Part shown: positions 5,161-58,353 of the stretch, piece after piece | How the letters are laid out: each line of letters opens with the position of its first letter | How positions within the stretch are numbered: position 1 is the stretch's first letter | Origin: Clostridia bacterium | GTDB lineage: Bacteria > Bacillota > Clostridia > UMGS1840 > HGM11507 | DNA length: 64,000 bases | Direction of reading: 5' to 3' | Assembly: GCA_017414505.1 (NCBI GenBank) | Contig: JAFQLQ010000031.1 | Coordinates: forward strand, 124,001 to 188,000 | Notes under the pieces: generated by a model | What the model saw: only the letters and a program-made list of their open reading frames with translations | Told to the model about the DNA's origin: nothing | Database searches by the model: none | Made by a program: the position numbers and the translations under genes

Positions 5161-5168
5161 AAAAGAGG

Positions 5169-33352: not shown

Positions 33353-35440
33353 CTATTGCTCTAAATTATCTTTTATGAATGTACTGGGTAAGATACCCTC
33401 GTATTTTTTGAAAATTCTTATATAAGTTTCTACACAGTTACAGCCTATACTTGAAGATACATCCGAAATTTTATGTCCTTTTAGCAAAAGCTCTTTTGAA
33501 TATTCAACCTTTTTCTTGTTTAAATAAGTTTTGAAATTTTCGCCGAATAATGTTTTAAATACCCGGCTTGTTTTATAATGTGAGTACCCAAGATGTTCAG
33601 CTAATTCATAAAGGCTTATATCTCTGCATAAATTATCAGAAATAAACTTTTCAATTATATCTTTTTCGTTTTCGGCATATTTTACGCTTCCGGTGTAGCT
33701 GAGAATGGGAACAAACATATCAAAAAGCTTCTTCTTTATTTCTTCGGAAGATAGATTTTCCAGCGAAAAATCCAATGATACCGAACCGGGGTATAAATCG
33801 TTTAATGTTTTGTCTATACTTTTTAAAATACGGTTTATTGTAACAATTAAGCTGTTTTTCAGCATTATCAGATTAAATTTATTTGCGTGAACAAGATTTG
33901 CTTCAATAATATGTTTAATCTGATTTTCAGCGAGAGCTGTTTCACCGTTTACAATTGACTGTATAATTTGTCTTTCCGATTCAATGGGGTAGTAAACATC
34001 AGCTTCAAGATTAATCTTTGTTTTTGAAGATTCATAAATATTTTTTGTATCATCAATAAAAAATACGCTGTTTTTTATAAGCTGTAATTTATTGAATTCT
34101 GCCGTACTTTCTTTTAAACCTTTAACTCTGTCACTTATACAAACTTTAAAATCAATGTTAAATTCAATTTGTAATGTATTTGATAAATTTTCCAGTATTT
34201 CATAAAAATCAATTTCTGAATCTTCCGTAATTATGCAAAAACCGTTGTAATAATCGTCAAAATACAGCATGGAAGGGAACTTCCCGATAAGTATTTCAAT
34301 TATATCGTTTTTAATAAAAGGAACACCTGCAACTGTGTAAACCGCCGCACATTCCGTATCGTTAACAATGGAGGCTAAAATAAGTCTGTGATTTTTATTT
34401 ATAATATCAATGCTGTATTCTTTTATAATATTGTTGGCGTGGTAGTCAACCAGTATACCGTGATATAAATCAGATAAATATGACTGAATAAGAAGCTTTT
34501 GTCTTATCTGAGCTTCTTTTTTTATTTCGGTAATGTTGGTTTGCATATTTTTTATGTTCTGTAAGCCGTCTTCAAGTGTTTCTATGTCCGAAATGGATTC
34601 TATCTGCTTTAATTCATCAATAAATTCTCTTACAGGCGTTGAAAATGATGCAACTATTTTTTTTGATAACACGTATGATGCCAATATCAGCAATATATAA
34701 ATCAGAATAAGCGGAATAACCGATGCATAGGGGAATGTGTTTTTTATGCAGTAAACATATTTGAAATTTTCCGAAACAACACAGGAAACAGAATATCCGG
34801 CTATTGCAGAATTTGATTCTGTCAATTCTTTTAAATTGCTTATTACCGGTTTTGTGTCATTTGAGAAAATAAGATCATTGTTGTTAAGCACGTAATAATG
34901 TGCATTAGTGCTGTTTTCGTCAAAAAACACCGAGCTCATATCATCATATAAAATATATATAAAAACAAGCTCAAGATCATTTATATAAGATTTCTTTTCG
35001 TAAAACACCTGACCGTGGCGGTATTTGAATGAGCCTTCTCTTTCGGGAAAATCCGATTCGGAAAAATTAATAACCTCGGTTTTTGCAAAATATTTTTTTT
35101 CGGTAATGTTGTAAATCCCAACGTCAAAATAAAGATTACCGTAAATGTGAGCGTAGGTTTTAATTTTGTCGTTTATGGTAAGGGTATACCAGCTGTCTTT
35201 TGTAAGAGCATATCTTGATATATCAACATCGGTTTGAAGATTGGCAAAAATGTTTTTTGCAGAATTTACACGAACATTGTTCCAGGTTGCCAGCATCTGA
35301 CAGTTTGCCTGAGAAAAATTAAGATTCTTTTTGTTGTTATTTTCAATAGAGAAAAAACATAAGCCTGAGCACAAAGCTGTGCTCAGGATAAGCAATATAG
35401 AAAATATAATTATTGTATGTTTTTTTAATTGTTTATTCAT
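33353..35440 (-). CDS. Membrane-bound AraC-family regulator with extracytoplasmic sensor region
   Basis: This 695-residue protein has a membrane helix at about residues 9-30, an extracytoplasmic ~200-residue sensor region, a second membrane helix at about 232-256 (VIPLILIYILLILASYVL) and a long cytoplasmic linker. A C-terminal AraC helix-turn-helix (about 592-690) carries SLYELAEHLGYSHYKTSRVF and an ISDVSSSIGC segment. It has the same design as the regulator at 29271-31478 but low sequence similarity, so it likely senses a different ligand. A promoter (TTGAAA-18-TATAAT) precedes it. Its position behind the two SLH genes that diverge from the second importer operon makes it the leading candidate regulator of that operon (inference). 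Confidence 0.87.
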   Translation of the reverse strand: MNKQLKKHTIIIFSILLILSTALCSGLCFFSIENNNKKNLNFSQANCQMLATWNNVRVNSAKNIFANLQTDVDISRYALTKDSWYTLTINDKIKTYAHIYGNLYFDVGIYNITEKKYFAKTEVINFSESDFPEREGSFKYRHGQVFYEKKSYINDLELVFIYILYDDMSSVFFDENSTNAHYYVLNNNDLIFSNDTKPVISNLKELTESNSAIAGYSVSCVVSENFKYVYCIKNTFPYASVIPLILIYILLILASYVLSKKIVASFSTPVREFIDELKQIESISDIETLEDGLQNIKNMQTNITEIKKEAQIRQKLLIQSYLSDLYHGILVDYHANNIIKEYSIDIINKNHRLILASIVNDTECAAVYTVAGVPFIKNDIIEILIGKFPSMLYFDDYYNGFCIITEDSEIDFYEILENLSNTLQIEFNIDFKVCISDRVKGLKESTAEFNKLQLIKNSVFFIDDTKNIYESSKTKINLEADVYYPIESERQIIQSIVNGETALAENQIKHIIEANLVHANKFNLIMLKNSLIVTINRILKSIDKTLNDLYPGSVSLDFSLENLSSEEIKKKLFDMFVPILSYTGSVKYAENEKDIIEKFISDNLCRDISLYELAEHLGYSHYKTSRVFKTLFGENFKTYLNKKKVEYSKELLLKGHKISDVSSSIGCNCVETYIRIFKKYEGILPSTFIKDNLEQ

Positions 35441-35504: not shown

Positions 35505-38162
35505 TTAATCATAAATAACAACCATTGATGCACGCTGATAAGTTGTTTTTACAACAGCGTTTGTTGTATCTGTGCCGGTTGCCAGATAGCTTAAAATCTC
35601 GTCATTTCGCATAGGCTTAACACGTCTGTTTTTTGTGTCGTATTTAATATACTGTGTTGAATCGTTAAGCGATAACGGAGTCATAGAATCAACAAGAGTA
35701 TATTTTCCTGTAGGCCCTTCGCTTACTTTTATTACTATGGTTTGCCTGCTTGCATTGTAAACAGTACCCTTGTAATAGGGATTTCCTACCTGGTCCTGTG
35801 CTTTTGCATTAGCAGACAGATCTGCTGTATGTGTTGATTCGTTGTATTTTGCATCTATAGAAAGACTTTTTATTTCTCCGCCGTAGCTGAGTGTTATTCT
35901 TACAATATCTCCGCTTTCAGGCATAGCATTGTTCTGCTTTAATCTGTTTTCAGTTTCATCGGAAAGAATATATCTTACAAAGCTTCCTTTGTTGTAAAGG
36001 GTAAGCTGAGTTGCAATGTCTCCTTCATCAGTAAGTACAGTAAGAATTTCATCAACAACAAATGCTCCGCCGCTTATGTGGTTTTCGCTCTCAGGATTTG
36101 TTTTGTTAAGATAAACAACAATAACGCCTGCACTCATTTCCTCATCAGGATCATATAAATCAACAGTATATGCTTTTGACGGACTTAATTGCGATGTTGT
36201 TATAACTTCAAAATCGTCCACGTTGTGCAATTCAACTTTGGTGGCATTTAAAAGAGTGTTTGGAATACCAAAGATAAGCGAATCGGAAACTTTTGAAGCC
36301 ACCGGTATAAGCGCGTTTGTACCGCTGTAATGATATGCTTCTGCTCCGCTTGCGTATTTTACAAGTGCGTCTTCGTTTTCAAAATCACTGTTATATATAT
36401 CCTCAAGCTTCATATCAGCAGTTTTTTCAATTGAAGTGTCAATCTTTTTTAGGAAACCTTCATTGTTAAGCTGATATCTGATAACCTGATAACGTACAAT
36501 TCCGGAATCTGTTAAAATGGAAGTAACGGCAGGGGAATTGTTGGTGTATGTTTCTCCGTTTAAAATGATTTTGTCAGCCAGAACAGGAGTAACAAAAGTA
36601 TTTTCCTGATCTAAAATTTTCACTTTTATTTCTTCGTTTAATTTCGTTTCTGCCATATAGCCTACAAGGTATCCGTAACGCATGGCAGAACCGGGATTTT
36701 TTACAGCTGTGACTGTATTATCGTAAGCAATCAGAAATTCACCGGAAAAGCCAGCTCCCACATCAGAAAAGTTCTTTTCAAAATATGAATTACGCTTGTA
36801 ATTGGTTCCGTTAATTACAATATATTCATCATAAACACTCTCAAGTGTACCTTTTACGGAAGCTTTTGAGGCAATTATTTCGCAGTATTTTTTGTCATCG
36901 CTTTCATAAACGGTAAGAACCTGACCCTTGGAAAGGATTCCGAAATCGGCTTCTGTAACAGTTCCGTTTTCATCGGAAACACTTATTTTGTAAATAAAAT
37001 TATCCTTTTCCTGAAGCACCAGATGCTTGTTTACGGTTGTATCGTATAAAGTAAGATTATAGTAGTCAGCTGAGGTTACAACCATATATCCGGCATTACG
37101 GGCAATGACAACGTCATATTTGTTATCGGCATTATTATCAATAAGGGTAAGACTGCCGGAATCAAATTTAAAATCTGAATCTTTCTGGTCAATCAATCTG
37201 CCGTTTTTTACAAAACTGAAGCCACGGTCTAAATTATAGCTTATAATATCATTATTATTTTCAGCTTCAAGCTTAAAATAACTGTAGTTTACAATATCAT
37301 CAGCAGGGATAGTTACTGTTTTGTTGGAAAGGGTGGGAATTAATGCTGTTATAACATCATCCTCATTGTAATAAGCTTCAACGGATTTTCCGAAATATGT
37401 TTCCGGAGAATCAATTTCCGTGTTGAAGTTTTTTCCGTTTATCATTAAGGTTTTTCTTTCAGTATGGTCATAATCAGTCATTGAATAATTTCCGGCTACT
37501 TTTACAACACCGGATGTTTTTGTAAGCTTGAAAATTCCTGTTAAGGGAGTATAATCGTCTGATGAGTCAAAATACAGGTTTCCGTCAGATATTCTGTCGT
37601 TTTTACAAATTGGTGTGTTTATAAATCTGTAAATAATATCTGTTATACGGTTTCTTTCAAGGGGAGTATCAGACATATCAATGGCGGTTTTAACAAGCTG
37701 TAATTCGTTGGAAACCTTGATGTATCCTTCGGGATATCCTCCGAATAATTCAGCTTTTTTTTCGTATCCAAGTGCATTTATCATAATTTTAAGTGCCGCT
37801 GTAACACTTATAGGTTCGTCCGGCATAAATTTATTTTCGCTTGTTCCGGAAACCAAACCAAGCTGTTTTGCTGTTGCTATATAAGAAGAATACTGATGGC
37901 TTTTTTTAACATCAGAAAAATTATCTCCCGTATATAAACTGTATTTCATGGATTTAACTGTTAAGCTGATAAATTCGCCTCGTGACAGGGCTTCTTCTTT
38001 TGTAGCAGTTTCTTCATCGAAAATATCAAGCATCTGTAAAAAGGCTGCTTTGTTAGCATCCATTATTTCTTCGTTTACAATTATTTCTGCAGTAGCAAAA
38101 GTAGGTAAAAGAAAAGAAATAAGAGACAGTATCAATATATATGTAAATATTATTTTTTTCAT
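35505..38162 (-). CDS. Exported SLH-domain protein with long unrecognised C-terminal region
   Basis: This 885-residue protein has a signal peptide (MKKIIFTYILILSLISFLLP, cleavage near residue 25). Three degenerate SLH repeats lie at about residues 40-210 (SRGEFISL, FSDVKKSHQYSSYIATAKQL, NKFMPDEPISVTAALKIM, ERNRITDIIY). The TRAE-type motif is eroded in all three, so wall binding may be weak. About 670 beta-rich residues follow, similar in organisation to the SLH protein at the left window edge; no known domain was recognised. Its start codon overlaps the stop of the upstream SLH gene (TAATG), so the two SLH proteins are translationally coupled, probably in equal amounts. Confidence 0.85.
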   Translation of the reverse strand: MKKIIFTYILILSLISFLLPTFATAEIIVNEEIMDANKAAFLQMLDIFDEETATKEEALSRGEFISLTVKSMKYSLYTGDNFSDVKKSHQYSSYIATAKQLGLVSGTSENKFMPDEPISVTAALKIMINALGYEKKAELFGGYPEGYIKVSNELQLVKTAIDMSDTPLERNRITDIIYRFINTPICKNDRISDGNLYFDSSDDYTPLTGIFKLTKTSGVVKVAGNYSMTDYDHTERKTLMINGKNFNTEIDSPETYFGKSVEAYYNEDDVITALIPTLSNKTVTIPADDIVNYSYFKLEAENNNDIISYNLDRGFSFVKNGRLIDQKDSDFKFDSGSLTLIDNNADNKYDVVIARNAGYMVVTSADYYNLTLYDTTVNKHLVLQEKDNFIYKISVSDENGTVTEADFGILSKGQVLTVYESDDKKYCEIIASKASVKGTLESVYDEYIVINGTNYKRNSYFEKNFSDVGAGFSGEFLIAYDNTVTAVKNPGSAMRYGYLVGYMAETKLNEEIKVKILDQENTFVTPVLADKIILNGETYTNNSPAVTSILTDSGIVRYQVIRYQLNNEGFLKKIDTSIEKTADMKLEDIYNSDFENEDALVKYASGAEAYHYSGTNALIPVASKVSDSLIFGIPNTLLNATKVELHNVDDFEVITTSQLSPSKAYTVDLYDPDEEMSAGVIVVYLNKTNPESENHISGGAFVVDEILTVLTDEGDIATQLTLYNKGSFVRYILSDETENRLKQNNAMPESGDIVRITLSYGGEIKSLSIDAKYNESTHTADLSANAKAQDQVGNPYYKGTVYNASRQTIVIKVSEGPTGKYTLVDSMTPLSLNDSTQYIKYDTKNRRVKPMRNDEILSYLATGTDTTNAVVKTTYQRASMVVIYD

Positions 38163-39805
38163 TATTTACCATCCTTTAAATATTCAAATAAATTGCATAT
38201 AATTTGCGCTGCTTCTGCTCTGTTGAGATTATTTTTAGGTAAATACATATTATTTCCTGAGCCGTTTAAAAGCTTGCTGTAAGAAAGTGCACCTATTGCT
38301 TCTTTTGCATAATCGGAAATTTCGTCTGAATCATTGAAAGTTAAATTTCCGGATAATTCCTTGCCTCTTAAATTAAGACATCTGTATGCAATAACAGCCG
38401 CATCTTCACGGGTAATATTGTCCTCCGGCATAAATTTGTTTCCTGAGCCTTTTATAATTCCCAAAGCATCAGCTTTTGTAACATAAGGATAGAACCAGTC
38501 GGTGTTTTTTATATCTGAATATGTATTTTGGCTTTCAGCATTGCCGTTGTCAGCAATAAAAAGAATCATTTTAGTAAATTCCGCACGAGTAACATTGTTG
38601 TCGGGATAAAACATATTGTTTTCATAACCGTTTACTGCACCTTCGGTGTAAAGTAGTTCTACTGCACGGTATGCCCAATGCTCGTTATTGATATCAGTAA
38701 AAGCCGGTTTTAACGGTGCAGGAGCCGGTGAGGGTACAGTAACAGCACTGCTTCCACCGTAGGAACTGCCGCCACCGCCGCTTGGACCTCCGCCACCACC
38801 GGATGGTATGAAGGTGCGGTTTTCTTCGTTGAATGCAACGACAACACAGTCGGAAAACAACTGTTCTGCTTTCTGTAAAGTATCAAAGCTTCCTTGCATC
38901 ATAAGCTGAAATACACGGTCTTTATCTCTTAACGAATTGTAGCTTATATTGGAATTAACAAAAGAAAAATCGAAATCTTCCGTTAAAACTTTTTTCAGTT
39001 TCTGCCAGGATAAAGCGCTCTGTATACAGCTGATTGGCTTTAACTCGTTAAAAATTGCAGAAAAGCTTTTTGTTTTCAGATTTTCTTTGTAATTATAGGA
39101 AGAAAGCAGGTTGCATAAATTTGTTTTTGCATTTTCATCCAGTCTTTCATCAGTTGCGTAATCTTTCCGAAAATCAATTGAAAGCTGAGTTGAATACTTG
39201 TTTAAAAGCTGTTCTATTGTATTTCTGTCCGAACCGGGAAGCCCGCAAATAGCATAAACCATATAAAAAGCATTGTTGAAATCAACCGGAGTAGATGCGC
39301 GTTTCAAAGTGAACAGAAGACTGTAAATTTCATCTTTGTTTTTAAGATACAGTGCATCCTCAGTGTTTATTCCAAGATCTGTTGCATATTCTTCAATTGC
39401 AATGGTAAACTCAGTTAAAGTAGTTTTCTGGTTGATTATTTCAAGTCCGGATTCAGCCTTTTTCTTGTCCATATAATTAAAGGTATCGCCGGCTGACGAA
39501 CTTTCACTTGTAACATACACAGTATATTTACCGCTTTTTGCATCCGGAGACATTGTAAAGGAATACATATATGTACCGTTTGCATTAAGCTGTTTTATTA
39601 TTATACTGCCGTCATTTTGTGAAAGGGAGGGGATATAAAGGATTATTGTTCCCTCTGCGTTTCCTTTTACAGTTACAGTTGAAGATTCCGGATCGTAAGA
39701 AACAACAGCAGTTAAAATGCTTTCGTCACTTGCGAAGCTATGAAAAACCGTGCCTGATATAATAAAGATAAATGCGCATATCAGACTTATTAATTTTTTC
39801 TTCAA
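38162..39805 (-). CDS. Exported protein with C-terminal SLH triplet (S-layer anchor)
   Basis: This 547-residue protein has a signal peptide (about residues 1-25) and an N-terminal beta module (about 28-105, VVSYDPESSTVTVKGNAEG). A mostly helical region of unknown function spans about 110-335. A Gly/Ser/Pro-rich linker (about 338-368) leads to three canonical SLH repeats (about 370-547) with VTRAEF, ITREDA and LNRAEA, the motifs that contact pyruvylated secondary wall polymer. It is the best anchor in the window. It is first of a minus-strand SLH-SLH-regulator cluster, with a promoter at 39892-39919, and diverges from the second importer operon. Confidence 0.9.
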   Translation of the reverse strand: MKKKLISLICAFIFIISGTVFHSFASDESILTAVVSYDPESSTVTVKGNAEGTIILYIPSLSQNDGSIIIKQLNANGTYMYSFTMSPDAKSGKYTVYVTSESSSAGDTFNYMDKKKAESGLEIINQKTTLTEFTIAIEEYATDLGINTEDALYLKNKDEIYSLLFTLKRASTPVDFNNAFYMVYAICGLPGSDRNTIEQLLNKYSTQLSIDFRKDYATDERLDENAKTNLCNLLSSYNYKENLKTKSFSAIFNELKPISCIQSALSWQKLKKVLTEDFDFSFVNSNISYNSLRDKDRVFQLMMQGSFDTLQKAEQLFSDCVVVAFNEENRTFIPSGGGGGPSGGGGSSYGGSSAVTVPSPAPAPLKPAFTDINNEHWAYRAVELLYTEGAVNGYENNMFYPDNNVTRAEFTKMILFIADNGNAESQNTYSDIKNTDWFYPYVTKADALGIIKGSGNKFMPEDNITREDAAVIAYRCLNLRGKELSGNLTFNDSDEISDYAKEAIGALSYSKLLNGSGNNMYLPKNNLNRAEAAQIICNLFEYLKDGK

Positions 39806-39891
39806 ACCAATTCATCCTTTCAGGTGTATTGCAATCAAGGTCTTTGTTCTGCAAGCCAATAAACACAGCCTGCTATCATAATTCTAAAATG

Positions 39892-39919
39892 ATTATAACA
39901 TATTATATTTTTAAGTCAA
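39892..39919 (-). promoter_or_regulatory. Promoter of the SLH gene pair
   Basis: On the minus strand TTGACT (39914-39919), 16 bp, then TATAAT (39892-39897). It leaves an ~80-base leader before the start at 39805. The element TTGCAAATTTT ends 5 bp upstream of the -35 box. Confidence 0.75.
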
Positions 39920-39924
39920 TTGAT

Positions 39925-40045
39925 AAAATTTGCAAGGTAAAACAACACTTGAATATGCAGTTTTTAAACAAAGGCTTGAAATAAAGGGATTATTTGAAAA
40001 AAAATTGATTAATCTGTTATTTGACTTAATTTTTTTGCAAATTTT
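39925..40045. promoter_or_regulatory. Mirror-image 11-bp operator elements of two divergent promoters
   Basis: AAAATTTGCAA at 39925-39935 is the exact inverse of TTGCAAATTTT at 40035-40045. Each copy reads TTGCAAATTTT in the direction of its own promoter and is separated from that promoter's -35 box by exactly 5 bp. This is the usual place for an activator that contacts RNA polymerase and predicts co-regulation of the SLH pair and the second importer operon. The ~395-base region 39806-40200 otherwise holds the two promoters, AT-rich DNA and a leader hairpin. Confidence 0.6.
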
Positions 40046-40050
40046 GTATA

Positions 40051-40080
40051 TTGACCGGAGAAGTTTTTTGGGGTTATAAT
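40051..40080 (+). promoter_or_regulatory. Promoter of the second importer operon
   Basis: TTGACC (40051-40056), 18 bp, then consensus TATAAT (40075-40080). It gives a leader of about 115 bases before the permease start at 40201. Confidence 0.8.
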
Positions 40081-40124
40081 TACCCTGCAAAGCACATCAA
40101 CGACTTTGTAATCATAATTCTTAT

Positions 40125-40142: not shown

Positions 40143-40180
40143 TTCCAACTAATTAAATTACAACGGAGGTTAATATCAAA

Positions 40181-40204
40181 ATGAAGAGGTCGGAGTTAAT
40201 ATGA
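40181..40204 (+). CDS. Possible 7-residue leader peptide coupled to the permease gene
   Basis: ATG 40181 has the best ribosome binding site of the region (CGGAGGT, about 10 bp upstream) and opens a short frame encoding MKRSELI. It ends in TGA 40202-40204, which overlaps the permease ATG 40201 as ATGA. The permease also has its own GGAG 5 bp upstream. This could be a translational-coupling leader or simply a relic of an older start. Sequence alone cannot tell. Confidence 0.4.
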   Translation: MKRSELI

Positions 40205-41160
40205 GAACAGAAAGCACATCTGTAAAAATTCCGGTAAATTCAAAATTCAAAAGTTATTTCTCTGCATTATACAGAGATGTAAAGCGTGATAAAGCTTTAT
40301 ATGCGCTTTTAATATTACCGGTTTTATATTTCGTTCTTTTTCACTATAAGCCTATGTACGGCCTGCAAATGGCATTTCAGGATTACAGTCTTTATAAAGG
40401 CATCGACGGAAGCAAATGGGTTGGTTTTGAAAATTTCAGAATGTTTTTTGAAAGCCCTTATTTTTTAAGAACTCTTAAAAATACTGTTCTTATAAGCTTG
40501 TATCAGTTGGTTTTTGCTTTTCCTGCACCCATTATTCTTGCAGTACTGTTTAACGAGGTAATAGGAAAAAGACTAAAAAAAGCCTTTCAGACAGCTTGCT
40601 ATATTCCGCATTTCGTTTCTGCAGTTATTGTAACCGGTCTTGTTACAAGATTCTGCGCAACAAACGGAATTGTAAATGTAATAGCATCCCTGTTTGGGGC
40701 GGAAAAACAAAATTATCTTACAATGCCTGAATATTTCAGGGGTATTTACACTTTTATGACAGTGTGGCAGAATACAGGTTTTGACAGTATAATTTATTCT
40801 GCAGCGCTTATGTCGGTTGATACTTCTCTTTATGAAGCCGCATCCATTGACGGAGCCAATAAATGGAAAAGAATGGTACACGTTACCTTTCCGTCAATTC
40901 TGCCTACAATTGTAACCATGTTTATTATAAAGCTTGGAAACTTTCTTAACGTAGGTGCTGACAATATTATACTGTTGTATCAGCCGGTAACTTACGAAAC
41001 CGCTGATACAATTTCTACATATATATACCGTGTGGGACTTGAAAACAGTCAGTATTCTCTTGCGGCGGCAGTTGGTCTTGTAAACGGAATAGTCGGACTG
41101 ATTCTTGTATACGTTTCCAATTATGTGAGCAGACGTGTAACGGAAAGCAGTTTATGGTAA
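40201..41160 (+). CDS. ABC sugar importer permease, LplB/YteP type (second importer)
   Basis: This 319-residue inner-membrane permease has six hydrophobic segments. Subfamily signatures are LPVLYFVLFHYKPMYGLQMA near residues 35-60, the EAA loop EAASIDGANKWKRMVHVTFP (about 218-238) and the final SSLW. It is a paralogue of the permease at 5169-6125. Its start overlaps the end of a tiny upstream frame. With the next two genes it forms a complete importer without ATPase, and it heads the second long operon, suggesting import of the lyase products encoded downstream. Confidence 0.93.
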   Translation: MRTESTSVKIPVNSKFKSYFSALYRDVKRDKALYALLILPVLYFVLFHYKPMYGLQMAFQDYSLYKGIDGSKWVGFENFRMFFESPYFLRTLKNTVLISLYQLVFAFPAPIILAVLFNEVIGKRLKKAFQTACYIPHFVSAVIVTGLVTRFCATNGIVNVIASLFGAEKQNYLTMPEYFRGIYTFMTVWQNTGFDSIIYSAALMSVDTSLYEAASIDGANKWKRMVHVTFPSILPTIVTMFIIKLGNFLNVGADNIILLYQPVTYETADTISTYIYRVGLENSQYSLAAAVGLVNGIVGLILVYVSNYVSRRVTESSLW

Positions 41161-41184
41161 ATTTTAAGAAAGGAAATAAAAACA

Positions 41185-42060
41185 ATGATTCAATCAAAAG
41201 CAGAAAAAACATTTTACGTAATTAACAATATTTTCCTTCTGATTTGTGCCGTAGTTGCAGTTTATCCGCTTATTTATGTTTTGTCGGCATCACTTTCTGA
41301 TCCTACATCAGTTGCAATGGGAAGTATACGGCTGCTTCCGAAAGGTCTGAATTTAAATTCGTATAAGGAAGTAATCAATTATAACGACGGTGCAATCTGG
41401 GTTGCGTATGCAAATACGTTTTACTATGTTATTGTTGGAACTGCAGTAAGCCTGATTCTTACTATTTTTACTGCATATCCGCTTTCCAAGAAAAGATTAA
41501 GAGGCGGAACAATTATTACTTTTCTTGTGGCGTTTACTATGTGGTTCAACGCAGGCATGATACCAACATATCTTAATTACAGGGATTTTCATCTTGTAGA
41601 TACAAGAACTTCAATTCTGCTGCATGGCGCAATTGTTTCTTTTTATGTATTTATGATGAAAACATTCTTCCAGAGTATTCCCGATTCGCTGGAAGAAGCT
41701 GCAAAAATTGACGGTGCAGGGGATATATACATTATGCTGCATATATATCTTCCGCTTTCAGCATCGTGTATAATCACAATTATACTTTATTATCTTGTAA
41801 GCAGATGGAATGCTTATTTGTGGTCATCTATTCTTCTTAACACCGAATCGAAAATTCCGCTTCAGGTATTGCTTAAAAAACTTGTTGTAGATGCAAACTG
41901 GAATGCCGAAACGGCAGGGATAGATTCAGTGAAAGATTATAACGCAGAAACACTTGTATATGCTACAATGGTTGTTTCTATCGTACCAATGCTAATTCTT
42001 TACCCGTTTTTACAGAAATATTTTATAAAAGGGGTAATGATTGGTGCAATTAAAGGTTAA
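41185..42060 (+). CDS. ABC sugar importer permease, LplC/YtcP type (second importer)
   Basis: This 291-residue permease carries WFNAGMIPTYLNY, the EAA loop EEAAKIDGAGDIYIMLHIYLP (about residues 171-191; first 20 residues are the signature) and the C-terminal KYFIKGVMIGAIKG of the LplC/YtcP group. RBS AAGGAAAT precedes ATG 41185. It pairs with the upstream permease and is a paralogue of 6142-7056. Confidence 0.93.
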   Translation: MIQSKAEKTFYVINNIFLLICAVVAVYPLIYVLSASLSDPTSVAMGSIRLLPKGLNLNSYKEVINYNDGAIWVAYANTFYYVIVGTAVSLILTIFTAYPLSKKRLRGGTIITFLVAFTMWFNAGMIPTYLNYRDFHLVDTRTSILLHGAIVSFYVFMMKTFFQSIPDSLEEAAKIDGAGDIYIMLHIYLPLSASCIITIILYYLVSRWNAYLWSSILLNTESKIPLQVLLKKLVVDANWNAETAGIDSVKDYNAETLVYATMVVSIVPMLILYPFLQKYFIKGVMIGAIKG

Positions 42061-42087
42061 ATTTATATAAATATGGAGGATTTTATT

Positions 42088-43647
42088 ATGAAATTAACAA
42101 AGAAAATTATCAGCGCTGCATTGGCGGCTACATTAATGGTTGTTTCTTTTTCAGGATGTTCCGAAAAAGAAAATACTAACGTAGAAAGAACAAACGACAC
42201 TCCTGATTTAGCTTATAAAATCAGCGATAAAAAGATAACACTTGATTTATTCTATACCGGAACATACGGTTCCGCAGTTGACGATGAAGCAGGAAGACTT
42301 ACAAATATTTATGTTAAAAATGTTGTTCCTGCATCAACCACCGATGCTACAAATGCCTATAATGTTATGCTTGCATCCGGAAACATTCCCGATCTTGTTT
42401 CATATTCTATCACAGATATAGAAAAAGAAGCTTTTGAAGGTGCTTTTGTTGCTTTGGATGAGTATATTGACGAGCTTGCTCCCAATATAAAAAAATTTCT
42501 TGACGAAAATCCTGATAAAAAAGCAAGTATCACCTCTTACGATGGACATATCTATTCCATTCCGCTTTTTGAAGCAGGAGAAACCGCTGCCGGATATTAT
42601 ATAAGACAGGACTGGCTTGATAAACTTGGCTTAAAAGCACCCACAACAGTAGATGAACTTTACACCGTATTAAAAGCTTTCAAAGAGCAGGATCCTAACG
42701 GAAACGGCATTCAGGATGAAATTCCTTTCTTCCAGAGAAGTATGAATCTTATGGGAATTATTTCACGTTTTGATTTAAAAGACGGTTTTTATGTTGACGA
42801 AAGCTCTGACAGCATAGTTCACGGCAAATACAGCGAAAAGTATAAAATGGCAATTGAAACTATTTCCAAATGGTATAAGGAAGGTCTTATCGATCCTGAT
42901 ATTTTCACAAGAGGCTCAAATGCAAGAGAAGAGCTTTTAGGAAACGATATCGGCGGTATGACTCACGACTGGTTTGCTTCCACATCAAGATACAACGAAC
43001 AGTTAAAAGATAAAATTGAAGGCTTCAATTTTGCACCTGTTGCACCTCCTGCAGATATAAACGGAAAAGTATGGGAATCCTCTGCACGTATGGTAGGGGT
43101 TCGCGGTTATGCGGTTTCTGCAGACAGTGAATATATTGAAGAAGCTATAAAATATATGGATTTCTGGTTCTCTGAACCCGGACTTATTCTGCAGTCCTAC
43201 GGTGTTGAGGGCAAACACTTTAACTATGTAGACGGAGCTCCTGTATTTACCGATGAATACCTAAGCTCTACAAAATCAATGAACGAAGCCTGGGCATCTG
43301 AGGGTATAACTCTTTACCGTTCAAGTGTTCAGAATTTTGATGCAGAACGTCAGTGGATGGCTCCTGCAGCACTGGAAGGTGCAAAACTTTACATTGATAA
43401 CGGATATTGCTCCAAACCTCAGCCTCAGCTTTCATTCAGCCCTGATGAAAAGAAAGTTCTTTCCACAAAATGGACTGCGGTTGATACATATATGAAAGAA
43501 ATGGAACAGAAATGGATTCTTGGCAAAAATGATGTTGTGGCAGACTGGAACGAGTATATCGAAACTTGTAAAAGCTTTGGTATGGAAGAAATCCTTAAAA
43601 TTTACAACGATGCTTATACACGTTATAAAGAAGTTAAAAGCAAATAA
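42088..43647 (+). CDS. Extracellular solute-binding lipoprotein (second importer)
   Basis: The start is set at ATG 42088 because TGGAGGA lies just upstream and a lipoprotein signal begins there; the in-frame ATG at 42073 overlaps that RBS. The protein has 519 residues, with a lipobox ending FSG-Cys24. A calcium-loop-like stretch DPNGNGIQDEIPF lies near residue 207, as in alginate-binding AlgQ-type and related CUT1 binding proteins. Such proteins bind oligosaccharides and pass them to LplB/LplC-type permeases. The heparinase-type lyases directly downstream suggest that the ligand is a uronic-acid-containing oligosaccharide (inference). Confidence 0.92.
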   Translation: MKLTKKIISAALAATLMVVSFSGCSEKENTNVERTNDTPDLAYKISDKKITLDLFYTGTYGSAVDDEAGRLTNIYVKNVVPASTTDATNAYNVMLASGNIPDLVSYSITDIEKEAFEGAFVALDEYIDELAPNIKKFLDENPDKKASITSYDGHIYSIPLFEAGETAAGYYIRQDWLDKLGLKAPTTVDELYTVLKAFKEQDPNGNGIQDEIPFFQRSMNLMGIISRFDLKDGFYVDESSDSIVHGKYSEKYKMAIETISKWYKEGLIDPDIFTRGSNAREELLGNDIGGMTHDWFASTSRYNEQLKDKIEGFNFAPVAPPADINGKVWESSARMVGVRGYAVSADSEYIEEAIKYMDFWFSEPGLILQSYGVEGKHFNYVDGAPVFTDEYLSSTKSMNEAWASEGITLYRSSVQNFDAERQWMAPAALEGAKLYIDNGYCSKPQPQLSFSPDEKKVLSTKWTAVDTYMKEMEQKWILGKNDVVADWNEYIETCKSFGMEEILKIYNDAYTRYKEVKSK

Positions 43648-43683
43648 TGTTTTTCAATTGTAAATCTATACGAGGTGATGAAT

Positions 43684-46600
43684 TTGCTTAAAAAAACAGC
43701 TTTAATACTTGTATTTACAATGTTGATAAGTCTTTGTCCTGTAATGTCAGCGGATAATTTGCTTATCAATGAAGTTTTTGAAAATTATGCTTTGAATGAA
43801 ACTGCGTTTTCTTCTTTTAACGTTCATTCAGGTGTTGATGTCAGAGTTACCGAAGATAGCGGAAATAAAGCTCTGTACGGAAAAGCCTGGGGAAGCGGAG
43901 TTTCTGTTTCGGTTCCGTTAAGCGGAGTTGACGCAAAAGGAAAATACGTATATTCCGTTCGTATTAAAACAACAGACGAAAAACCTGTTGGCAAGCTTTT
44001 TTCAATAACAGATACAAGTGGAAATATTCTCGATTTAATAACAATTAAAAAAGATAGCGGATTATATCTTCCTGATAACAAGCAAATAGGCGGATATGTT
44101 CACAACAAATGGACTGAATATACCGTTATGGCAGACTGGCGTGCTCAGAGCATCAGCATTTATATAAACGGAAAAAATGCTGTTTATTCCTGGCGCTTGC
44201 CACAAAAAAGCTTTGGTGCTGCGGCAAAAATTGATTTTTCCTTTGCAGAACCTGCGGAAGGTATAATACAGTGCCTGTTCGATAATTTAAGAATTTATAA
44301 GGGGAGCATTCTGCCGGATAAGATGAATTTTCCTTCGGTTGCTTATTCATCTGAGGTAAAGGAATTTACTCCTGCAACAGAAATTATCAACGAATATACA
44401 TCATATTTCGATATTAATTTCTCGAGTATATCCGGGAATATAGCCTTTGGTGACCACGGTCTTTCTGTTTCATACGAAAAGCTTGAAGATGAAAATGGCG
44501 TTATGAAATTTGAAACACATTCAGATTCGCCCTGTTCAGGTTATTTCGATATTGATTCGCGTTCCTTATCATCTGACAGCAGATATGTTGTTCAGGTAGA
44601 TGTTTTTGTCAAGGAATTTGACGGCGACGGAAACCAGATGAATCTGTTTTACAGTAAGGATGCCAATAATAATTTCTATTCCGGATTGTATTTAAAACCG
44701 GACGGTACGGTTTATTACGGGCATACAAATACCAAAGCAGGTACATTTGAATTTAATGAATGGACAAATTTTGCCATTGTATATAATAAAGATGCGGGGC
44801 TTTGCGATATTTATATAAACGAAGAGCTAGCCCTTAAGGATGCAGCCTGCGTTTCTTCTATGAAGCCTATTATTTACAGATTCGACGCTAAAAATAATTC
44901 CGGCGGAAATATAGATATTTGTCTTGATAACCTTCGTTTATACCATAGCAGGACATTGCTTACAAACGACGAAGCAGAAGAAAATACAAATACTCCGTCT
45001 GTTCCGTCAGGGGAGAGAACAACAATTTACACCGATGACAAAGCTCTGGAGTATTCGGATGGTGCAAGCGTTTTAATGCTTACCAACAATACTTTACTTG
45101 TTGACGGAAAAAAACTTAACTGTGACAGCAACGATTTGAAACCGCAGGTTATAAACGGTTCTACTATGCTTCCTGCCGGTGCAGTTAAGCTGATAGGCAA
45201 AACAGAGGTTAACTGGAATAAAGATTCCGGAGAAATATCTGTCGGCGGAAGCAGTCTGAAAGAGGGCGAAAAAACCGCTAATAAAAACGGTAGTGTAATT
45301 GAGCTTTCTTCTGCTCCCAAAGCAGAAAACGGAATTTTATATCTTCCTTTGCGTTCCGTTTGCGAAAATGTTCTTAATAAAAGTGTTCTTTGGGACGAAC
45401 GCGGTTTCATTGTTATTTCAGATTCGGAATTTGAATATACAAACAGTCCGCTGTTTACTGAAACTTCCGAACCAATTGACGAAATTTACAGATTTATGCA
45501 GTTTGACCGTCCGTCGGGCGAAGCGGTTATAGAAACAATTAAGAAAAATTTCCCGAATAAGGCTCATCCGAGAATTATTCTTGATCAAAGTGAGCTTGAT
45601 TACATTAAAAATAAGGTTTCAACTGATTCCCAATGGAAAAAAAGAATAAACGACTGGGTAGTTTCCACCGAGCCCTTTATGAATAAAGAAATTGCCACAA
45701 ATCCCGATCCGCTTGAAATTTATGATACATACGGAAATCTTTATATGAATATGATGCTTAAGGTCGGTACAGCATTTCTTTTAACCGGTGACGAAAGATA
45801 TGTAAATAAAGGTGTTAAAGAAACACTTAATGCCTGCAAGTGGAACAATCTTGGTGAAAGCTACTCTGCTTTACAGAGCGGACATTGGGCAATTGGTATG
45901 GCGGTAGCATATGACAGTTTTTACAACTATCTTTCACAAACCGATGAAGGTAAGGAAACTCTTGCTGAGATGCGTAAAGGCATTAACAGACTGCTTTACC
46001 GTATCAATATAAGAGGCTTTGAAGGCGCTGAAAAATCTCAGTGGCTTGACAGAAATAATAACTGGCTTGGTGTTGTAGGAGGAGGTATTCTTGCACTTTT
46101 ACTTAGTGTTGGAGACGAAGAAGACCTGCCCGATACAGCTTATATGATTGAAAACACCTTAAAAGCACTTGAAAAATTCATAGGCTTCTATTCTCCGGAC
46201 GGAGGATATTTTGAAGGTGTATCATATTCGCACTACGGTGCACATCTTACAGTTTATGCTCTTGTAGCTCTTAACCGTATATGTAAAACCGATTACGGTA
46301 TTTCCACCGCATCCGGATTTAAGGATATGGCTAAATTTTTCGTGTATACCCAGACACCCACAGGCCATTTTAATTTCCACGATGATTCACAGCAGTTTTT
46401 AAGTAACTATATACCGTATCAGATTTGTTACTTATATGATGATCCTGAAACGTTGTATTATTACGATAATCTGCGTTCTATTTCTGGAATGAAAAATGAC
46501 GTTTTAATGCAGCTTTATTACGAAAAATGTATTACCAACAGAAATATAACTGTTCAACCGAATAAATCGCTTGATAATTATTTTGTCGGATGTGATGTTG

Positions 46601-48102
46601 GTTCTTTCAGAAACAGTTTTCAGACCAAAACACCGGTATTTGCAGCGTACCACGGAGGCTATTCCGGGCTTAACCACGATATGCTTGATTTAGGTCAGTT
46701 CTATTTTGAGGCTGACGGTGTAATATGGGCATACGACCTTGGAAAAGACAGTTATTCTCTTCCGAATTACTTCACTCCGGCAGGATATGCGCATTACAGA
46801 AAAGGTACATCCGGTGAAAATTGTATTGTTATTAATCCCAAGAAAGATTCCAATAAGTATTTCGGTCAGAAGGTAGGAGCATATGCAAAGCTTATTGATT
46901 CCGAATCCAAAGCAAGAGGTGCGAAAGCAGCATACGATCTTACAGAAGCGTATGAAAGAGATGCCGAAAGCTATATAAGAGGCTACTATTTTGGCGATAA
47001 CAGAAACACTCTTACGGTGCGTGATGAAATAACTTTTAAATCATCAGAAAACGAAGTTTACTGGTTTATGCACACACCTGCATCTATAGAAATTACAGGC
47101 GAAAACAAGGCAATTCTTACATCTGCAACCGGAAAAAAACTGCAGGTTGATGTCCTTGTTGAAGGTGCAGATGAATATGAGCTTCTTGATATGGAAGCAA
47201 AGCCGTTCTCATTTGCGCCCAATGCTTCGGGGCAGGGCAGTAATGACGGTATAAGAAAGCTTGCCATAAAAGCACTTTCGGATAAAGAACTTTCCATTAC
47301 AGTTAAATTAAGCCCTGTTAATAATGAATACGATTTAACAGAAATTTCAGCTGAGAAAATCTCCGGCTGGACTATACCTGACGGTGAAATTCCGAAAAAG
47401 CTTGAGTTATATGAGCTAACAGTAAACGGTGAAAGCGTTCCGGCGTTTAATTCTTCAAGAAATTATTATGAAATTGAGTTACCTTTCGGAACAGAAGAAT
47501 CTCCCGTTGTTCAGGCAAAATCATATGATGGGGAAGTAGTTGTTACTCAGGCTCCCACACCTTTTGACGAAGCAAAAATTACTGTTAATAAGAGCGGTAA
47601 TAGGGACAGCGTTTATACTGTTAAATTCAATGTGTCCTCCGACCGTGAAATTGTGGTAACTGAAGAGCTTTATGACGTACAGCCCGTTGCAAAAATGAGC
47701 GGAACTCTTATTTCGCCCGTAAGCGCAAGTGCCAGCGACCTTTCTGAACCTCAGAACGGTTCGGATAAAATGATTGACAACGATTTGAGCACAAGATGTG
47801 CAGTTTCGGGTAACGGTATATGGATGGAAATAGACCTTGGCGCTGTTAAAGAATTCGATGGTGTTGCACTTGGTTTCTTTAAAGGTGATACAAGAAACTG
47901 TTATTTTGATATTATGTATTCTGAAGACGGAATAAACTTCAAAAAAGTATTTAACGGTGAATCAACCGGCGAAACAGCAGAGCTTGAAAGTCTGCCGATT
48001 CCCGGAAAAGCCCGTTATATAAGATATGTGGGATACGGAAACTCCTACATTCCGTCTGCGGTTTGGAACAGTGTGACAGAATTTGCAGTATATAAAAACT
48101 GA
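43684..48102 (+). CDS. Giant secreted heparinase II/III-type lyase with LamG, stalk and F5/8-type C domains
   Basis: TTG 43684 is the likely start: it lies 5 bp after GAGGTGAT, whereas GTG 43675 and ATG 43678 lie inside that ribosome site. The protein has about 1472 residues. It has a signal peptide (to about 22), two LamG-like modules (about 25-205, 225-420) and a copper-amine-oxidase-like stalk (about 430-590). A catalytic (alpha/alpha) toroid and beta-sandwich of the heparinase II/III family span about 600-1235: NNNW at 791-794, YSHYGAH at 848-854, NHDMLDLG from 997. A cadherin-like module (about 1240-1320) and a discoidin F5/8 C-type binding domain (about 1330-1472) follow. The family cleaves uronic-acid polysaccharides such as heparin, heparan sulfate or alginate. 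It is paralogous to 50268-55034. Confidence 0.82.
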   Translation: MLKKTALILVFTMLISLCPVMSADNLLINEVFENYALNETAFSSFNVHSGVDVRVTEDSGNKALYGKAWGSGVSVSVPLSGVDAKGKYVYSVRIKTTDEKPVGKLFSITDTSGNILDLITIKKDSGLYLPDNKQIGGYVHNKWTEYTVMADWRAQSISIYINGKNAVYSWRLPQKSFGAAAKIDFSFAEPAEGIIQCLFDNLRIYKGSILPDKMNFPSVAYSSEVKEFTPATEIINEYTSYFDINFSSISGNIAFGDHGLSVSYEKLEDENGVMKFETHSDSPCSGYFDIDSRSLSSDSRYVVQVDVFVKEFDGDGNQMNLFYSKDANNNFYSGLYLKPDGTVYYGHTNTKAGTFEFNEWTNFAIVYNKDAGLCDIYINEELALKDAACVSSMKPIIYRFDAKNNSGGNIDICLDNLRLYHSRTLLTNDEAEENTNTPSVPSGERTTIYTDDKALEYSDGASVLMLTNNTLLVDGKKLNCDSNDLKPQVINGSTMLPAGAVKLIGKTEVNWNKDSGEISVGGSSLKEGEKTANKNGSVIELSSAPKAENGILYLPLRSVCENVLNKSVLWDERGFIVISDSEFEYTNSPLFTETSEPIDEIYRFMQFDRPSGEAVIETIKKNFPNKAHPRIILDQSELDYIKNKVSTDSQWKKRINDWVVSTEPFMNKEIATNPDPLEIYDTYGNLYMNMMLKVGTAFLLTGDERYVNKGVKETLNACKWNNLGESYSALQSGHWAIGMAVAYDSFYNYLSQTDEGKETLAEMRKGINRLLYRINIRGFEGAEKSQWLDRNNNWLGVVGGGILALLLSVGDEEDLPDTAYMIENTLKALEKFIGFYSPDGGYFEGVSYSHYGAHLTVYALVALNRICKTDYGISTASGFKDMAKFFVYTQTPTGHFNFHDDSQQFLSNYIPYQICYLYDDPETLYYYDNLRSISGMKNDVLMQLYYEKCITNRNITVQPNKSLDNYFVGCDVGSFRNSFQTKTPVFAAYHGGYSGLNHDMLDLGQFYFEADGVIWAYDLGKDSYSLPNYFTPAGYAHYRKGTSGENCIVINPKKDSNKYFGQKVGAYAKLIDSESKARGAKAAYDLTEAYERDAESYIRGYYFGDNRNTLTVRDEITFKSSENEVYWFMHTPASIEITGENKAILTSATGKKLQVDVLVEGADEYELLDMEAKPFSFAPNASGQGSNDGIRKLAIKALSDKELSITVKLSPVNNEYDLTEISAEKISGWTIPDGEIPKKLELYELTVNGESVPAFNSSRNYYEIELPFGTEESPVVQAKSYDGEVVVTQAPTPFDEAKITVNKSGNRDSVYTVKFNVSSDREIVVTEELYDVQPVAKMSGTLISPVSASASDLSEPQNGSDKMIDNDLSTRCAVSGNGIWMEIDLGAVKEFDGVALGFFKGDTRNCYFDIMYSEDGINFKKVFNGESTGETAELESLPIPGKARYIRYVGYGNSYIPSAVWNSVTEFAVYKN

Positions 48103-48119
48103 TATGCAAGAGGTAAAAT

Positions 48120-50243
48120 ATGAGAAAAATAAATAAAATAATATCACTTCTTATGATAATCTGTATGATGAATTTTGTACAGGTTTGTGCTGATAGTGCC
48201 GAAGTGATTTCGATATTTCCTGCTGACGGAAGCGCTGTTACCGCTGACACTTTGCAGTTATCTGCACAGTGCTCCAAAACCGCACAGAAAGCAGTTTTTA
48301 TACTTGACGGTGTGAAACTTACTCCTGTGGAAATTGCCGGCGATTTTGCGGAGATTTTCCTGCAGGAAAATATGAAATACGGAAAGCATATTTTAGAAGT
48401 TGTTTTTATAGGTGATAATTTTTCTGCTTATAAAAAGTCGGAATTTACTGTTATAAAATCTGAGGATACAGTTCACGAAAACAGTGCCGGTATAACAGAT
48501 ATGGCATTGGCAAATAACAGTGCTTCAAACCCCGGAGGAGGAGAGCTTTATCTTTCTACCCGCACTCTGGATAAGGCGTGGAAAATTAATCTTGGAACTC
48601 AGATTTATAATTCTACAGGCCCGTATATAGATTTGACAAACAATGTATTTTCAGGTGCTAAAACCACTTCGGAATGCGTAATACATTTTACTTTTGATGT
48701 AAAAGCCACTCATACAGGTGCCGGCATGAAAATTGAAAGCCGCTGTTATAACGAAGCAGGAATTTCAAGCTGGAGTGGTATTAAAAATATATCAGCTATG
48801 GCAGATGGCAAGCTTGCAGACAGCGAAATTTCTTTTGAAGCGGATAAGTGGTATTCTTTTGATTATATGTTTGATACCGAAAATAATATTATTTCTGTTT
48901 CAGTAGATGGCGAAGAGCTTATAAGCGATACATATACTTCGGATCAGTTTAATAAAGGTCTTGCTCTTATAAGGTTGAGAGTTCTGCAGTATGAATGTGC
49001 AGACAGCGAGGCTTATCCAGATGGCGGATATATTGTTGTTGACAATATGAAGGTTATATCCGGAGATGATGTTTTTACTTCAACCGGAGATGTTAACAAT
49101 GTAACATTTGGCAATAACGCTTCCGGTAATCCCGGCGGCGGAGAGATTTCTCTTGAAAATACAACGGGAAAAAACACTTCCGGAAAAGAATATTTTTCGG
49201 TTAATCTCGGAAAGCAGGTTTATACAAGTACCGGGCCTTATATTGACCTTAATTTAAAAAACTTTCCTAAAATTATTGTTCACGATAAATGTATAACAAC
49301 ATTTAATTTCGACTTGTATGCATCACATATCGGAGCAGGGCTGATGATAGAATCACGTTGCTTCAATTCTGTAAATGCATCAAGCTACACCGGAATTAAA
49401 AATATTAAAGCTATTTACGACGGAAAGCTTGCAGAAACCAGTAAAAGCTTTAATCCCGGAAAATGGTATAGCTTTAAATATGTTTTCGATACTGTGAGCA
49501 ATAAAATTACAGTTTATGTAGATGATGAAAAATTACAGGAAATGCAGTATACATCAGGGGAATACAATAAAGGAATGTCATTATTGAGATTCAGATTTCT
49601 TCAGACTGCTGCAAGTAATAACGGTTTTATTCTTCTGGATAAGATGAATGTTGTAACAACATCTGTTAAAGGTACCGGTATTTATGCTGAATATTTAAAA
49701 GACGGTGCATATGTGGCAATAGCCGACGGAACGATTCCTTACGGTGTTAATAAACTAAGATTTAATTCTGATGTTGCCCTCACTGATTTAAAGGTGTATG
49801 AAAACGGCAGGCTTATTGACGCCGCAATAAATTCCGTTTCGGATACAGTAAAAGAAATTACTGTTGAAAAAAACTTCCCTGCAGGTTCTGAAATTAAGCT
49901 TTCTGCAGCCGAGACTGAGCTTAAAGTGAGAGTTGGATTGAAAAATTCTGCAGATATTAAAGGAACATTCACAGTAAACGACACACCGCTTTACGTTTCC
50001 GAACAGTTAAAAGCCGGAGATACGGTATCAGTATCCTATAATATAACCGGAGAAAGTGAAGATTACTGCACAGCGATAACTGTTTTTGACGGAAACGTAC
50101 CTGTGTGCTCAGATTTTGCTTACGGGCAGGAAATATCTGTTACCTTGCCTGGTGACTTAGGAAATTATACAGTAGAAAGCTTTGTTTTTAAAGATATTTC
50201 CGCTAAAATTCCTGTTTCGGCACAAATCTGGAATGTCCATTAA
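48120..50243 (+). CDS. Secreted protein with Ig-like and two LamG-like modules
   Basis: This 707-residue protein has a signal peptide (about residues 1-24) and an N-terminal Ig-like module (about 25-115, IFPADGSAV). Two near-duplicate LamG-like modules lie at about 120-310 and 320-510; each opens with GGGELYL or GGGEISL and contains STGPYIDL, then a WYSFxYxFDT strand. Two further beta modules form the C-terminus, the last related to the recurring terminal module of this window. There is no catalytic domain and no wall anchor. It lies between two lyase genes and most likely binds the same polysaccharide. The LamG modules resemble those of the next two proteins (GAYINL, EYIFDT). Confidence 0.72.
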   Translation: MRKINKIISLLMIICMMNFVQVCADSAEVISIFPADGSAVTADTLQLSAQCSKTAQKAVFILDGVKLTPVEIAGDFAEIFLQENMKYGKHILEVVFIGDNFSAYKKSEFTVIKSEDTVHENSAGITDMALANNSASNPGGGELYLSTRTLDKAWKINLGTQIYNSTGPYIDLTNNVFSGAKTTSECVIHFTFDVKATHTGAGMKIESRCYNEAGISSWSGIKNISAMADGKLADSEISFEADKWYSFDYMFDTENNIISVSVDGEELISDTYTSDQFNKGLALIRLRVLQYECADSEAYPDGGYIVVDNMKVISGDDVFTSTGDVNNVTFGNNASGNPGGGEISLENTTGKNTSGKEYFSVNLGKQVYTSTGPYIDLNLKNFPKIIVHDKCITTFNFDLYASHIGAGLMIESRCFNSVNASSYTGIKNIKAIYDGKLAETSKSFNPGKWYSFKYVFDTVSNKITVYVDDEKLQEMQYTSGEYNKGMSLLRFRFLQTAASNNGFILLDKMNVVTTSVKGTGIYAEYLKDGAYVAIADGTIPYGVNKLRFNSDVALTDLKVYENGRLIDAAINSVSDTVKEITVEKNFPAGSEIKLSAAETELKVRVGLKNSADIKGTFTVNDTPLYVSEQLKAGDTVSVSYNITGESEDYCTAITVFDGNVPVCSDFAYGQEISVTLPGDLGNYTVESFVFKDISAKIPVSAQIWNVH

Positions 50244-50267
50244 TATTTCTTATAAAGGAGGGATAAA

Positions 50268-55034: not shown

Positions 55035-55060
55035 TATATAAAAAGAAAGGAACGAAAAAA

Positions 55061-57499: not shown

Positions 57500-57545
57500 A
57501 AAAGCTGGTGCTAAAAGCTGGTGCTTATTTAAGCATCAGCTTTTT
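57500..57545. terminator. Terminator with duplicated left arm between convergent genes
   Basis: A 15-bp stem (57513-57527 with 57530-57544, one G-T wobble) with a 2-base loop ends in T. A second copy of the 13-base left arm (57500-57512) lies directly before it, so two alternative hairpins are possible. It ends the second importer operon and overlaps the stop of the converging AraC gene. Confidence 0.85.
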
Positions 57546-58353
57546 AAATAAATGTTTTACGGTATCTCAGAGGGCTTATATTATATTTTTTCAAAAAACA
57601 TCGATTAAATGATCGCAAACTTCCAAAACCGCATTGTAAAGCAATATCTGTCATACTGAAGTTTGTGGAATTAAGAAAAATAATCGCTTTTTCCAATCTG
57701 AAATCATTAAGATATTGTATAAAAGTAGTATTTGAAATTTTTTTGAATTCATGCGAAAAATAAAATTTAGACATATGACATTCGCTCGCAATTTCTTCAA
57801 GTTTAATTTTCTGTGAATAGTTAGTTTCAAGAAATTTGTTTACCGTATTCAACAATCTGATGTTTTTCTCTTTATCAATAATTTCAAATTCCATATTCCT
57901 TATAATATTAGAAATTATACAGTTTTTATGTGCTCTTATTGCAAACTCATATCCGGGAGCTTTTTCTTCATATTCATTTTGAATAGCTTCAATAATGTTT
58001 TTGAGGTTATTATAAAGTGAATGCTCAGGGGATATAATATTGTTTTTTAATCTTATTTTTTCAAAATTTATATTTTCTACATATGAGTTAAGGTTTATTT
58101 TTATAACATATCCATTGCTGTCTCTTACAAGTGTGAATCCGTGAATTTCGCCTGGCATAAAAATACAGAAGGAGCCTTCATTTATAGTAATTTTCTTATT
58201 TTCAGAAAAAGCTGAAAGGTTTCCTGTTTGTGCGTAAACAAGTTCCATTTCTTCGTGATAGTGTGCAATGCTGCTTAAATTTCTGTTTGTAAATTTTATA
58301 TATGGAAAACTTCCTATTGGCTTGTTTTTTGTTTCAAATAATATTTCCGACAT
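57544..58353 (-). CDS. AraC-family regulator with N-terminal cupin
   Basis: This 269-residue cytoplasmic regulator has a cupin domain at about residues 25-100 (IAHYHEEMELVYAQTGNLSA, FCIFMPGEIHGF) and an AraC-type double helix-turn-helix at about 165-268 (KLEEIASECHMSKFYFSHEF, SMTDIALQCGFGSLRSF). It is divergent from the GH3 gene and separated from it by 200 bp, so it probably controls the GH3 gene in response to a sugar. A GGGG-rich ribosome site precedes ATG 58353. Confidence 0.9.
   Translation of the reverse strand: MSEILFETKNKPIGSFPYIKFTNRNLSSIAHYHEEMELVYAQTGNLSAFSENKKITINEGSFCIFMPGEIHGFTLVRDSNGYVIKINLNSYVENINFEKIRLKNNIISPEHSLYNNLKNIIEAIQNEYEEKAPGYEFAIRAHKNCIISNIIRNMEFEIIDKEKNIRLLNTVNKFLETNYSQKIKLEEIASECHMSKFYFSHEFKKISNTTFIQYLNDFRLEKAIIFLNSTNFSMTDIALQCGFGSLRSFNRCFLKKYNISPLRYRKTFI

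Follow-up and report, generated by a model that had tools for sequence, protein, structure and literature searches.

An identical 11-bp element stands at the same distance from two divergent promoter-like sites between SLH genes and an importer operon in a Clostridia bacterium

Two promoter-like sites that point away from each other, one toward a pair of predicted SLH surface protein genes and the other toward a predicted importer-lyase operon, share an 11-bp element, placed equally far from the −35-like hexamer of each, in a 64,000-nucleotide stretch of DNA from a Clostridia bacterium (the whole stretch is called the window). Herein, we found that the mirrored element pair is real, local, and unusual for its genome, and the analysis supports the view that both promoter-like sites have an element in common that is specific to the locus. 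The best reading of this arrangement is that one activator would serve both sites. Specifically, we consider it somewhat better than an even chance that a single activator encoded in the cluster, predicted to be of the AraC type, uses the element as a twin operator and would co-induce the SLH proteins and the importer-lyase operon. Our confidence in this reading comes mainly from shuffles that keep the register, from the comparison with distant promoter pairs, and from the count of the element beside TTGAC against the Markov expectation.

The gap between the divergent genes (39806-40200) is 395 bp long and AT-rich. It contains the following features:

39935-39925, minus strand: shared element copy 1, TTGCAAATTTT, reading toward the SLH genes
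39919-39914, minus strand: −35-like hexamer TTGACT of the promoter-like site on the SLH side
39897-39892, minus strand: −10-like hexamer TATAAT, spacer of 16, preceded by TG
40035-40045, plus strand: shared element copy 2, TTGCAAATTTT, reading toward the importer operon
40051-40056, plus strand: −35-like hexamer TTGACC of the promoter-like site on the importer side
40075-40080, plus strand: −10-like hexamer TATAAT, spacer of 18

An earlier reading made from the sequence alone (the sequence-only reading) had described an identical 11-mer, 5 bp, TTGAC(T/C), and TATAAT mirrored on both sides, and its coordinates and geometry were correct. The 5 bp between the element and the −35 are ATCAA on the minus side and GTATA on the plus side, and each promoter-like site is near consensus, with 11 of 12 hexamer bases matching (5 of 6 in the −35). 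The identical part, 11 of 11 bases, includes both TTGC and AAATTTT. Read by eye, TTGCAA stands 16 bp from TTGACT/C, which is itself the −35, and no clear direct-repeat half-sites were seen around the element. From the start of the element through the end of the −35, 18 of 22 bases are equal between the two sides, and the agreement stops at the element edges. Duplication of the promoter region was also considered. Since only 22 of the 65 bases upstream of the −35 are equal, 11 of them being the element itself, a copied segment seems unlikely, and this candidate was set aside.

The genes on either side are as follows:

38162..39805, minus strand: SLH protein 1, 547 aa, with three SLH domains (Pfam SLH, 3e-40)
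35505..38162, minus strand: SLH protein 2, 885 aa (Pfam SLH, 3.7e-9)
35501-35472, minus strand: promoter-like site before the AraC gene, lacking the shared element
33353..35440, minus strand: AraC-type regulator, 695 aa, HTH_18 at the C-terminus (Pfam HTH_18, 1.1e-12)
40201..43647, plus strand: ABC importer (Pfam; PDB sequence matches)
40201-41160 and 41185-42060, plus strand: two importer permeases (Pfam)
42073-43647, plus strand: solute-binding protein, AlgQ1/AlgQ2-like (best PDB relatives include AlgQ1 and AlgQ2)
43675..57493, plus strand: rest of the predicted operon
43675-48102 and 50268-55034, plus strand: DUF4962/heparinase II/III-type enzymes (Pfam)
48120-50243 and 55061-57493, plus strand: two large proteins without a clear family
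57544..58353, minus strand: cupin-type AraC regulator, just past the importer operon on the opposite strand

SLH protein 1 has a TTG start and, by eye, a signal-like N-terminus, and the two SLH genes overlap by one base. The AraC-type protein at 33353-35440 contains two hydrophobic segments, recognized by eye and not with a predictor. On the plus strand, seven genes run from 40201 to 57493 with short gaps between them, and we infer that they form one operon. For one of the DUF4962/heparinase-type enzymes a PL35 chondroitinase was among the matches, and its CBM32-like end matches those of alginate lyases. A locus for a uronate glycan is plausible, the substrate being predicted from these relatives. 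Within the genome, 10 of the 14 scored relatives of SLH protein 1 (itself included, and chosen from 110 first-look candidates) lie at most 16 kb from a top permease match; this is a raw count made with the best 19 of 27 permease matches, the 8 weakest being omitted.

Some further features of these genes were observed. The first importer operon (window 33-6125; L079:8147-9820) also has two SLH proteins before its permeases, of 557 and 801 aa. Between the first and second importer operons, the second members of the SLH pairs agree at 27% over 364 residues, and the first members align mainly in their SLH parts. A 24-nt palindromic stem-loop (35364-35387), followed by a T-rich stretch and scored as terminator-like, lies in the first codons of the AraC gene. 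The AraC gene converges with the gene at 31613-33169, and a terminator-like 15-bp stem (33180-33214) separates the two.

The sequence-only reading held that chance placement of the pair was very unlikely. For mere presence this did not stand. Of 4,000 dinucleotide shuffles of the gap, 398 contained an inverted exact 11-mer pair somewhere, and little can be read from the presence of such a pair by itself. For the shared register it held: when the two 40-bp upstream pieces were shuffled, 11 consecutive bases agreed in register in 20 of 60,000 shuffles, or 11 of 60,000 when at least two G/C were required. Chance agreement of two AT-rich upstream regions over 11 bases is further favored by the way in which the pair was found, as it was picked by a reader from the 64-kb window, which was searched by eye with many comparisons open.

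Real promoter pairs were then taken as a background. The genome sample comprised 948,566 distinct bases, mostly around importer and SLH loci, with 340 promoter-like sites; a stricter list of 46 sites misses the minus promoter of the locus, and the 340-site list was used instead. Near pairs were defined as promoter-like sites less than 40 kb apart. An in-register run of at least 11 bases with at least two G/C was found in 2 of 2,989 near pairs and in 1 of 54,407 distant pairs (Fisher one-sided 0.008). The distant-pair rate predicts about 0.05 such runs for the near pairs, whereas 2 were seen, namely the SLH/importer gap and the pair C2:122894/C2:137215. With runs of 10, 9, and 8, the near-pair excess was not significant (2 near vs 11 distant, 2 vs 26, and 3 vs 52; Fisher 0.14, 0.43, and 0.55). 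When the register was slipped by one base, three distant pairs shared runs of 11 to 13. A 13-mer common to the minus upstream region and C2:122779 is one base out of register and was judged to be chance.

Among the divergent gaps in the genome sample, 22 of 37 were testable (71 promoter pairs), and the SLH/importer gap was the only one of the 22 with at least 8 in-register bases, at least two of them G/C. At the importer loci of other species, none of the 9 testable gaps (of 31; 28 pairs) had at least 8 bases in register under the same G/C requirement. Weighing the in-register results against the shuffled gaps and the open search, we regard chance agreement as rather improbable.

The genome searched is 2.38 Mb and 88% complete, and expected counts were taken from an order-3 Markov model of the genome sample. 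The exact 11-mer TTGCAAATTTT occurs 14 times in it, against 21.6 expected and 6 for reversed-pattern controls, and the 12 copies outside the pair all lie within ORFs of at least 100 aa; a count below expectation is also what chance agreement would allow. The element followed by N5-TTGAC occurs twice, both times in the SLH/importer gap, against 0.016 expected. The genome-wide scan proposed in the sequence-only reading, where a common and randomly distributed element would have counted against it, thus gave a divided answer, true of the bare 11-mer and not true of the 11-mer beside TTGAC. When up to 3 mismatches were allowed in the element beside a −35, 87 matches were found against 100 for reversed-pattern controls, with no excess. 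A genome-wide regulon was therefore rejected, and the absence of an excess of degenerate copies indicates a local element, which fits a local regulator. The pattern TTGCAA-N10-TTGAC was found only at the locus, with 0 in controls, but was not counted as evidence because the Markov model expects 3.

Other genomes were also searched. The gap had short matches in 23 of 290 other genomes, the longest of about 58 bases, which we read as AT-rich chance. The exact full pattern occurred in 1 of 195 other genomes and in 6 of 390 genomes of the class, one each (the first included). If the own-genome rate of 0.016 applies, 6 matches in 390 genomes are about the chance level. Three of these six matches fall within open frames; the other three come with a −10 box and precede inositol monophosphatase-type, SLH, and MazE-type genes. 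The SLH case, in another genome of the class (L184:1501-2729), reads element-N5-TTGACA-17-TATAAT before the SLH gene and is possibly chance.

These matches bear on a second explanation, in which the element is part of an UP element and the gap holds a strong, unregulated promoter pair with no dedicated regulator. Assuming a transcription start 7 bases past each −10, the two AAATTTT tracts fall at roughly −48 to −42 and −46 to −40, and so provide, on both sides, an A/T-rich block within about −57 to −38. This is close to the proximal UP subsite, centered at −43 in the B. subtilis promoters described in PMC4495994. Given the near-consensus cores, both with 11 of 12 consensus bases, and AAATTTT at the UP position, an unregulated strong promoter pair is the main rival. 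In addition, the genome contains 6 copies of AAATTTT-N5-TTGAC, where 2.7 are expected and reversed-pattern controls give 3: two of them are in the gap, a third (C53:48709) comes with a −10 recognized by eye, two (C38) are inside an ORF, and the sixth is C2:6248. The full-pattern matches outside frames in the 390 genomes all have a −10 box (3 of 3). However, among the 106 TTGAC sites of the sample that lie outside frames, 54 come with a −10 in any case, so 3 of 3 is not surprising. Furthermore, UP elements in that B. subtilis account are degenerate A/T tracts (PMC4495994), whereas here 11 of 11 bases are equal in an exact 11-mer, and the TTGC in the identical part goes beyond the need of an A/T tract alone. 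No other of the 22 testable divergent gaps shows a shared element. We therefore hold the UP element to be a possible explanation, though a tentative one.

The other near pair in the same genome provides a second case. The promoter-like sites C2:122894 and C2:137215 are 14 kb apart, and 69 of the 75 bases upstream of their −35 are equal. The two upstream segments are:

L123:2819-2893: upstream segment of the first site, with GTCCA repeats
L123:17140-17214: upstream segment of the second site, with GTCCA repeats

The sites precede a Hepar_II_III gene (protein of 2,149 aa) and a permease gene (L123:17288-18187, 299 aa, Pfam), and a PocR/AraC-type gene (L123:11165-12352) lies between them. Unlike this case, the SLH/importer element is without clear direct-repeat half-sites. 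Together with the second case, our finding, if true, suggests that shared promoter-proximal elements could reveal the promoters of one polysaccharide locus in such genomes.

An operator would call for a regulator, and AraC-type genes are present in the same cluster as the shared 11-bp element. Four were found in the window (25976-26812, 29271-31478, 33353-35440, and 57544-58353); in a Pfam scan of the 33 main window ORFs, two of which gave no family below 0.001, no other DNA-binding regulators were named. The sequence-only reading had put forward the AraC protein at 33353-35440. In favor of it, the protein has an AraC-type HTH and, on the side of the surface proteins, no regulator gene lies closer. 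Against it, there are three other AraC-type genes in the window, and the gene's own promoter-like site (35501-35472) is without the element. Moreover, it was not borne out that an AraC gene usually lies directly beside such permeases: only 3 of the 17 scanned genes adjoining related permeases in the genome had an AraC-type HTH, a scan in which 4 neighbors gave no family and several were cut by the locus end, loci L097 and L111-L114 lying outside it. A close AraC relative was found (P0001, 95% identity). The membrane AraC protein is kept as a putative first candidate for the activator, a guess that we put at perhaps one-in-three odds, and the cupin-type AraC regulator at 57544-58353 is a putative second candidate.

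According to the explanation that we prefer, the cluster-encoded activator would dock on the 11-bp element, which precedes each −35 by 5 bp, and recruit RNA polymerase to both divergent sides, so that the two SLH surface proteins and the alginate/glycosaminoglycan-type importer-lyase operon would be switched on together. The inducing signal would be an oligosaccharide released by the lyases, and the purpose of the arrangement would be that surface proteins and uptake machinery appear together despite their opposite gene directions. The twin operator of an activator is favored because of the exact identity including TTGC, the fixed register, the lack of any other TTGAC-adjacent copy, the four AraC-type genes, and the second case. 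Binding of a protein to the element, activation as opposed to repression, and the AraC-type identity of the regulator are predicted from sequence. Several observations speak against an activator, among them the near-consensus cores on both sides, the missing element before the membrane AraC gene, and the lack of clear direct-repeat half-sites.

The first of these would suit a different regulator. A repressor, or a regulator of another family than AraC with its gene elsewhere, might use the element as a twin operator and block both promoters until the substrate is present, and near-consensus cores would fit release from repression better than activation. But the element is upstream of the core, neither over it nor downstream of it, whereas in the Caldicellulosiruptor bescii loci described in PMC8579813 the predicted-repressor sites overlap promoter elements or sit in the 5' UTR. 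As for a non-AraC regulator, the DNA-binding regulators named by Pfam in the window are all of the AraC type. Such a repressor or outside regulator is in our view quite improbable.

One activator for two back-to-back promoters is found in E. coli at malEFG/malK-lamB and rhaSR/rhaBAD, with several operators and CRP between the promoters. Here, unlike the several operators of these divergent regulons, there is one element copy per promoter. The mirrored element pair is of a known kind, the activator step being predicted.

Further likenesses come from carbohydrate loci of C. bescii, where, as far as the account in PMC8579813 goes, regulators are mostly local, and the AraC-type sites lie upstream of promoter elements in 4 of 4 single-component and 3 of 5 two-component cases and are read as activators. 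Like the CUT1 loci in that account, the locus studied here has a cluster-encoded AraC-type regulator, a site upstream of the core, and a predicted local regulon. The C. bescii sites are tandem repeats with large spacers (PMC8579813), whereas here each divergent promoter has a single 11-bp block, the two being symmetric, and the arrangement is known from the sequence of one genome.

Regarding the MarA/SoxS/RamA promoters described in PMC10268841, the likeness to class I/II lies in an asymmetric site that directly precedes the core and whose orientation relative to it is fixed. In class II promoters of MarA and SoxS, the site overlaps the −35 and there is no recognizable −35 consensus (PMC10268841), whereas here a 5-bp gap separates the element from strong −35 boxes, so that a site over a poor −35 was found on neither side, each −35 having 5 of 6 bases. 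Class I sites are farther upstream and in reverse orientation, unlike here (PMC10268841). The Spx/alpha-CTD promoters of B. subtilis resemble the present ones in having a short G/C-containing motif and then an A-rich tract upstream of the −35 (PMC2801614). The Spx motif in that description is AGCA at −45 to −42, whereas the GC of TTGC lies here at about −50 to −47, and the genes here are not thioredoxin-type, unlike the Spx/alpha-CTD targets described (PMC2801614).

A bolder version of the activator reading can be drawn, which we consider unlikely. The membrane-embedded, one-component AraC protein would sense an extracellular glycan, bind the mirrored operators, draw the divergent promoter to the membrane, and fire both sides simultaneously, so that the S-layer-anchored coat and the uronate-glycan importer and lyases would be rebuilt together, as a Gram-positive counterpart of a Bacteroidetes polysaccharide-utilization locus that is equipped with a bidirectional switch. 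If the twin operator is true, it would link S-layer-type surface proteins with one specific system for glycan import in a Clostridia-like lineage, and the element would be a small, testable operator recognized by an AraC-type regulator.

A perfect hairpin, GCCAAAG-GAGA-CTTTGGC, was observed at 40125-40142, where the 5' leader of the importer transcript is predicted; the stability of the leader as a whole is not unusual (z −1.1). Downstream of it, at 40181-40204, a seven-codon ORF, MKRSELI, has a good ribosome site by eye, and its stop extends into the start of the first permease gene; it is possibly a leader peptide or an old start.
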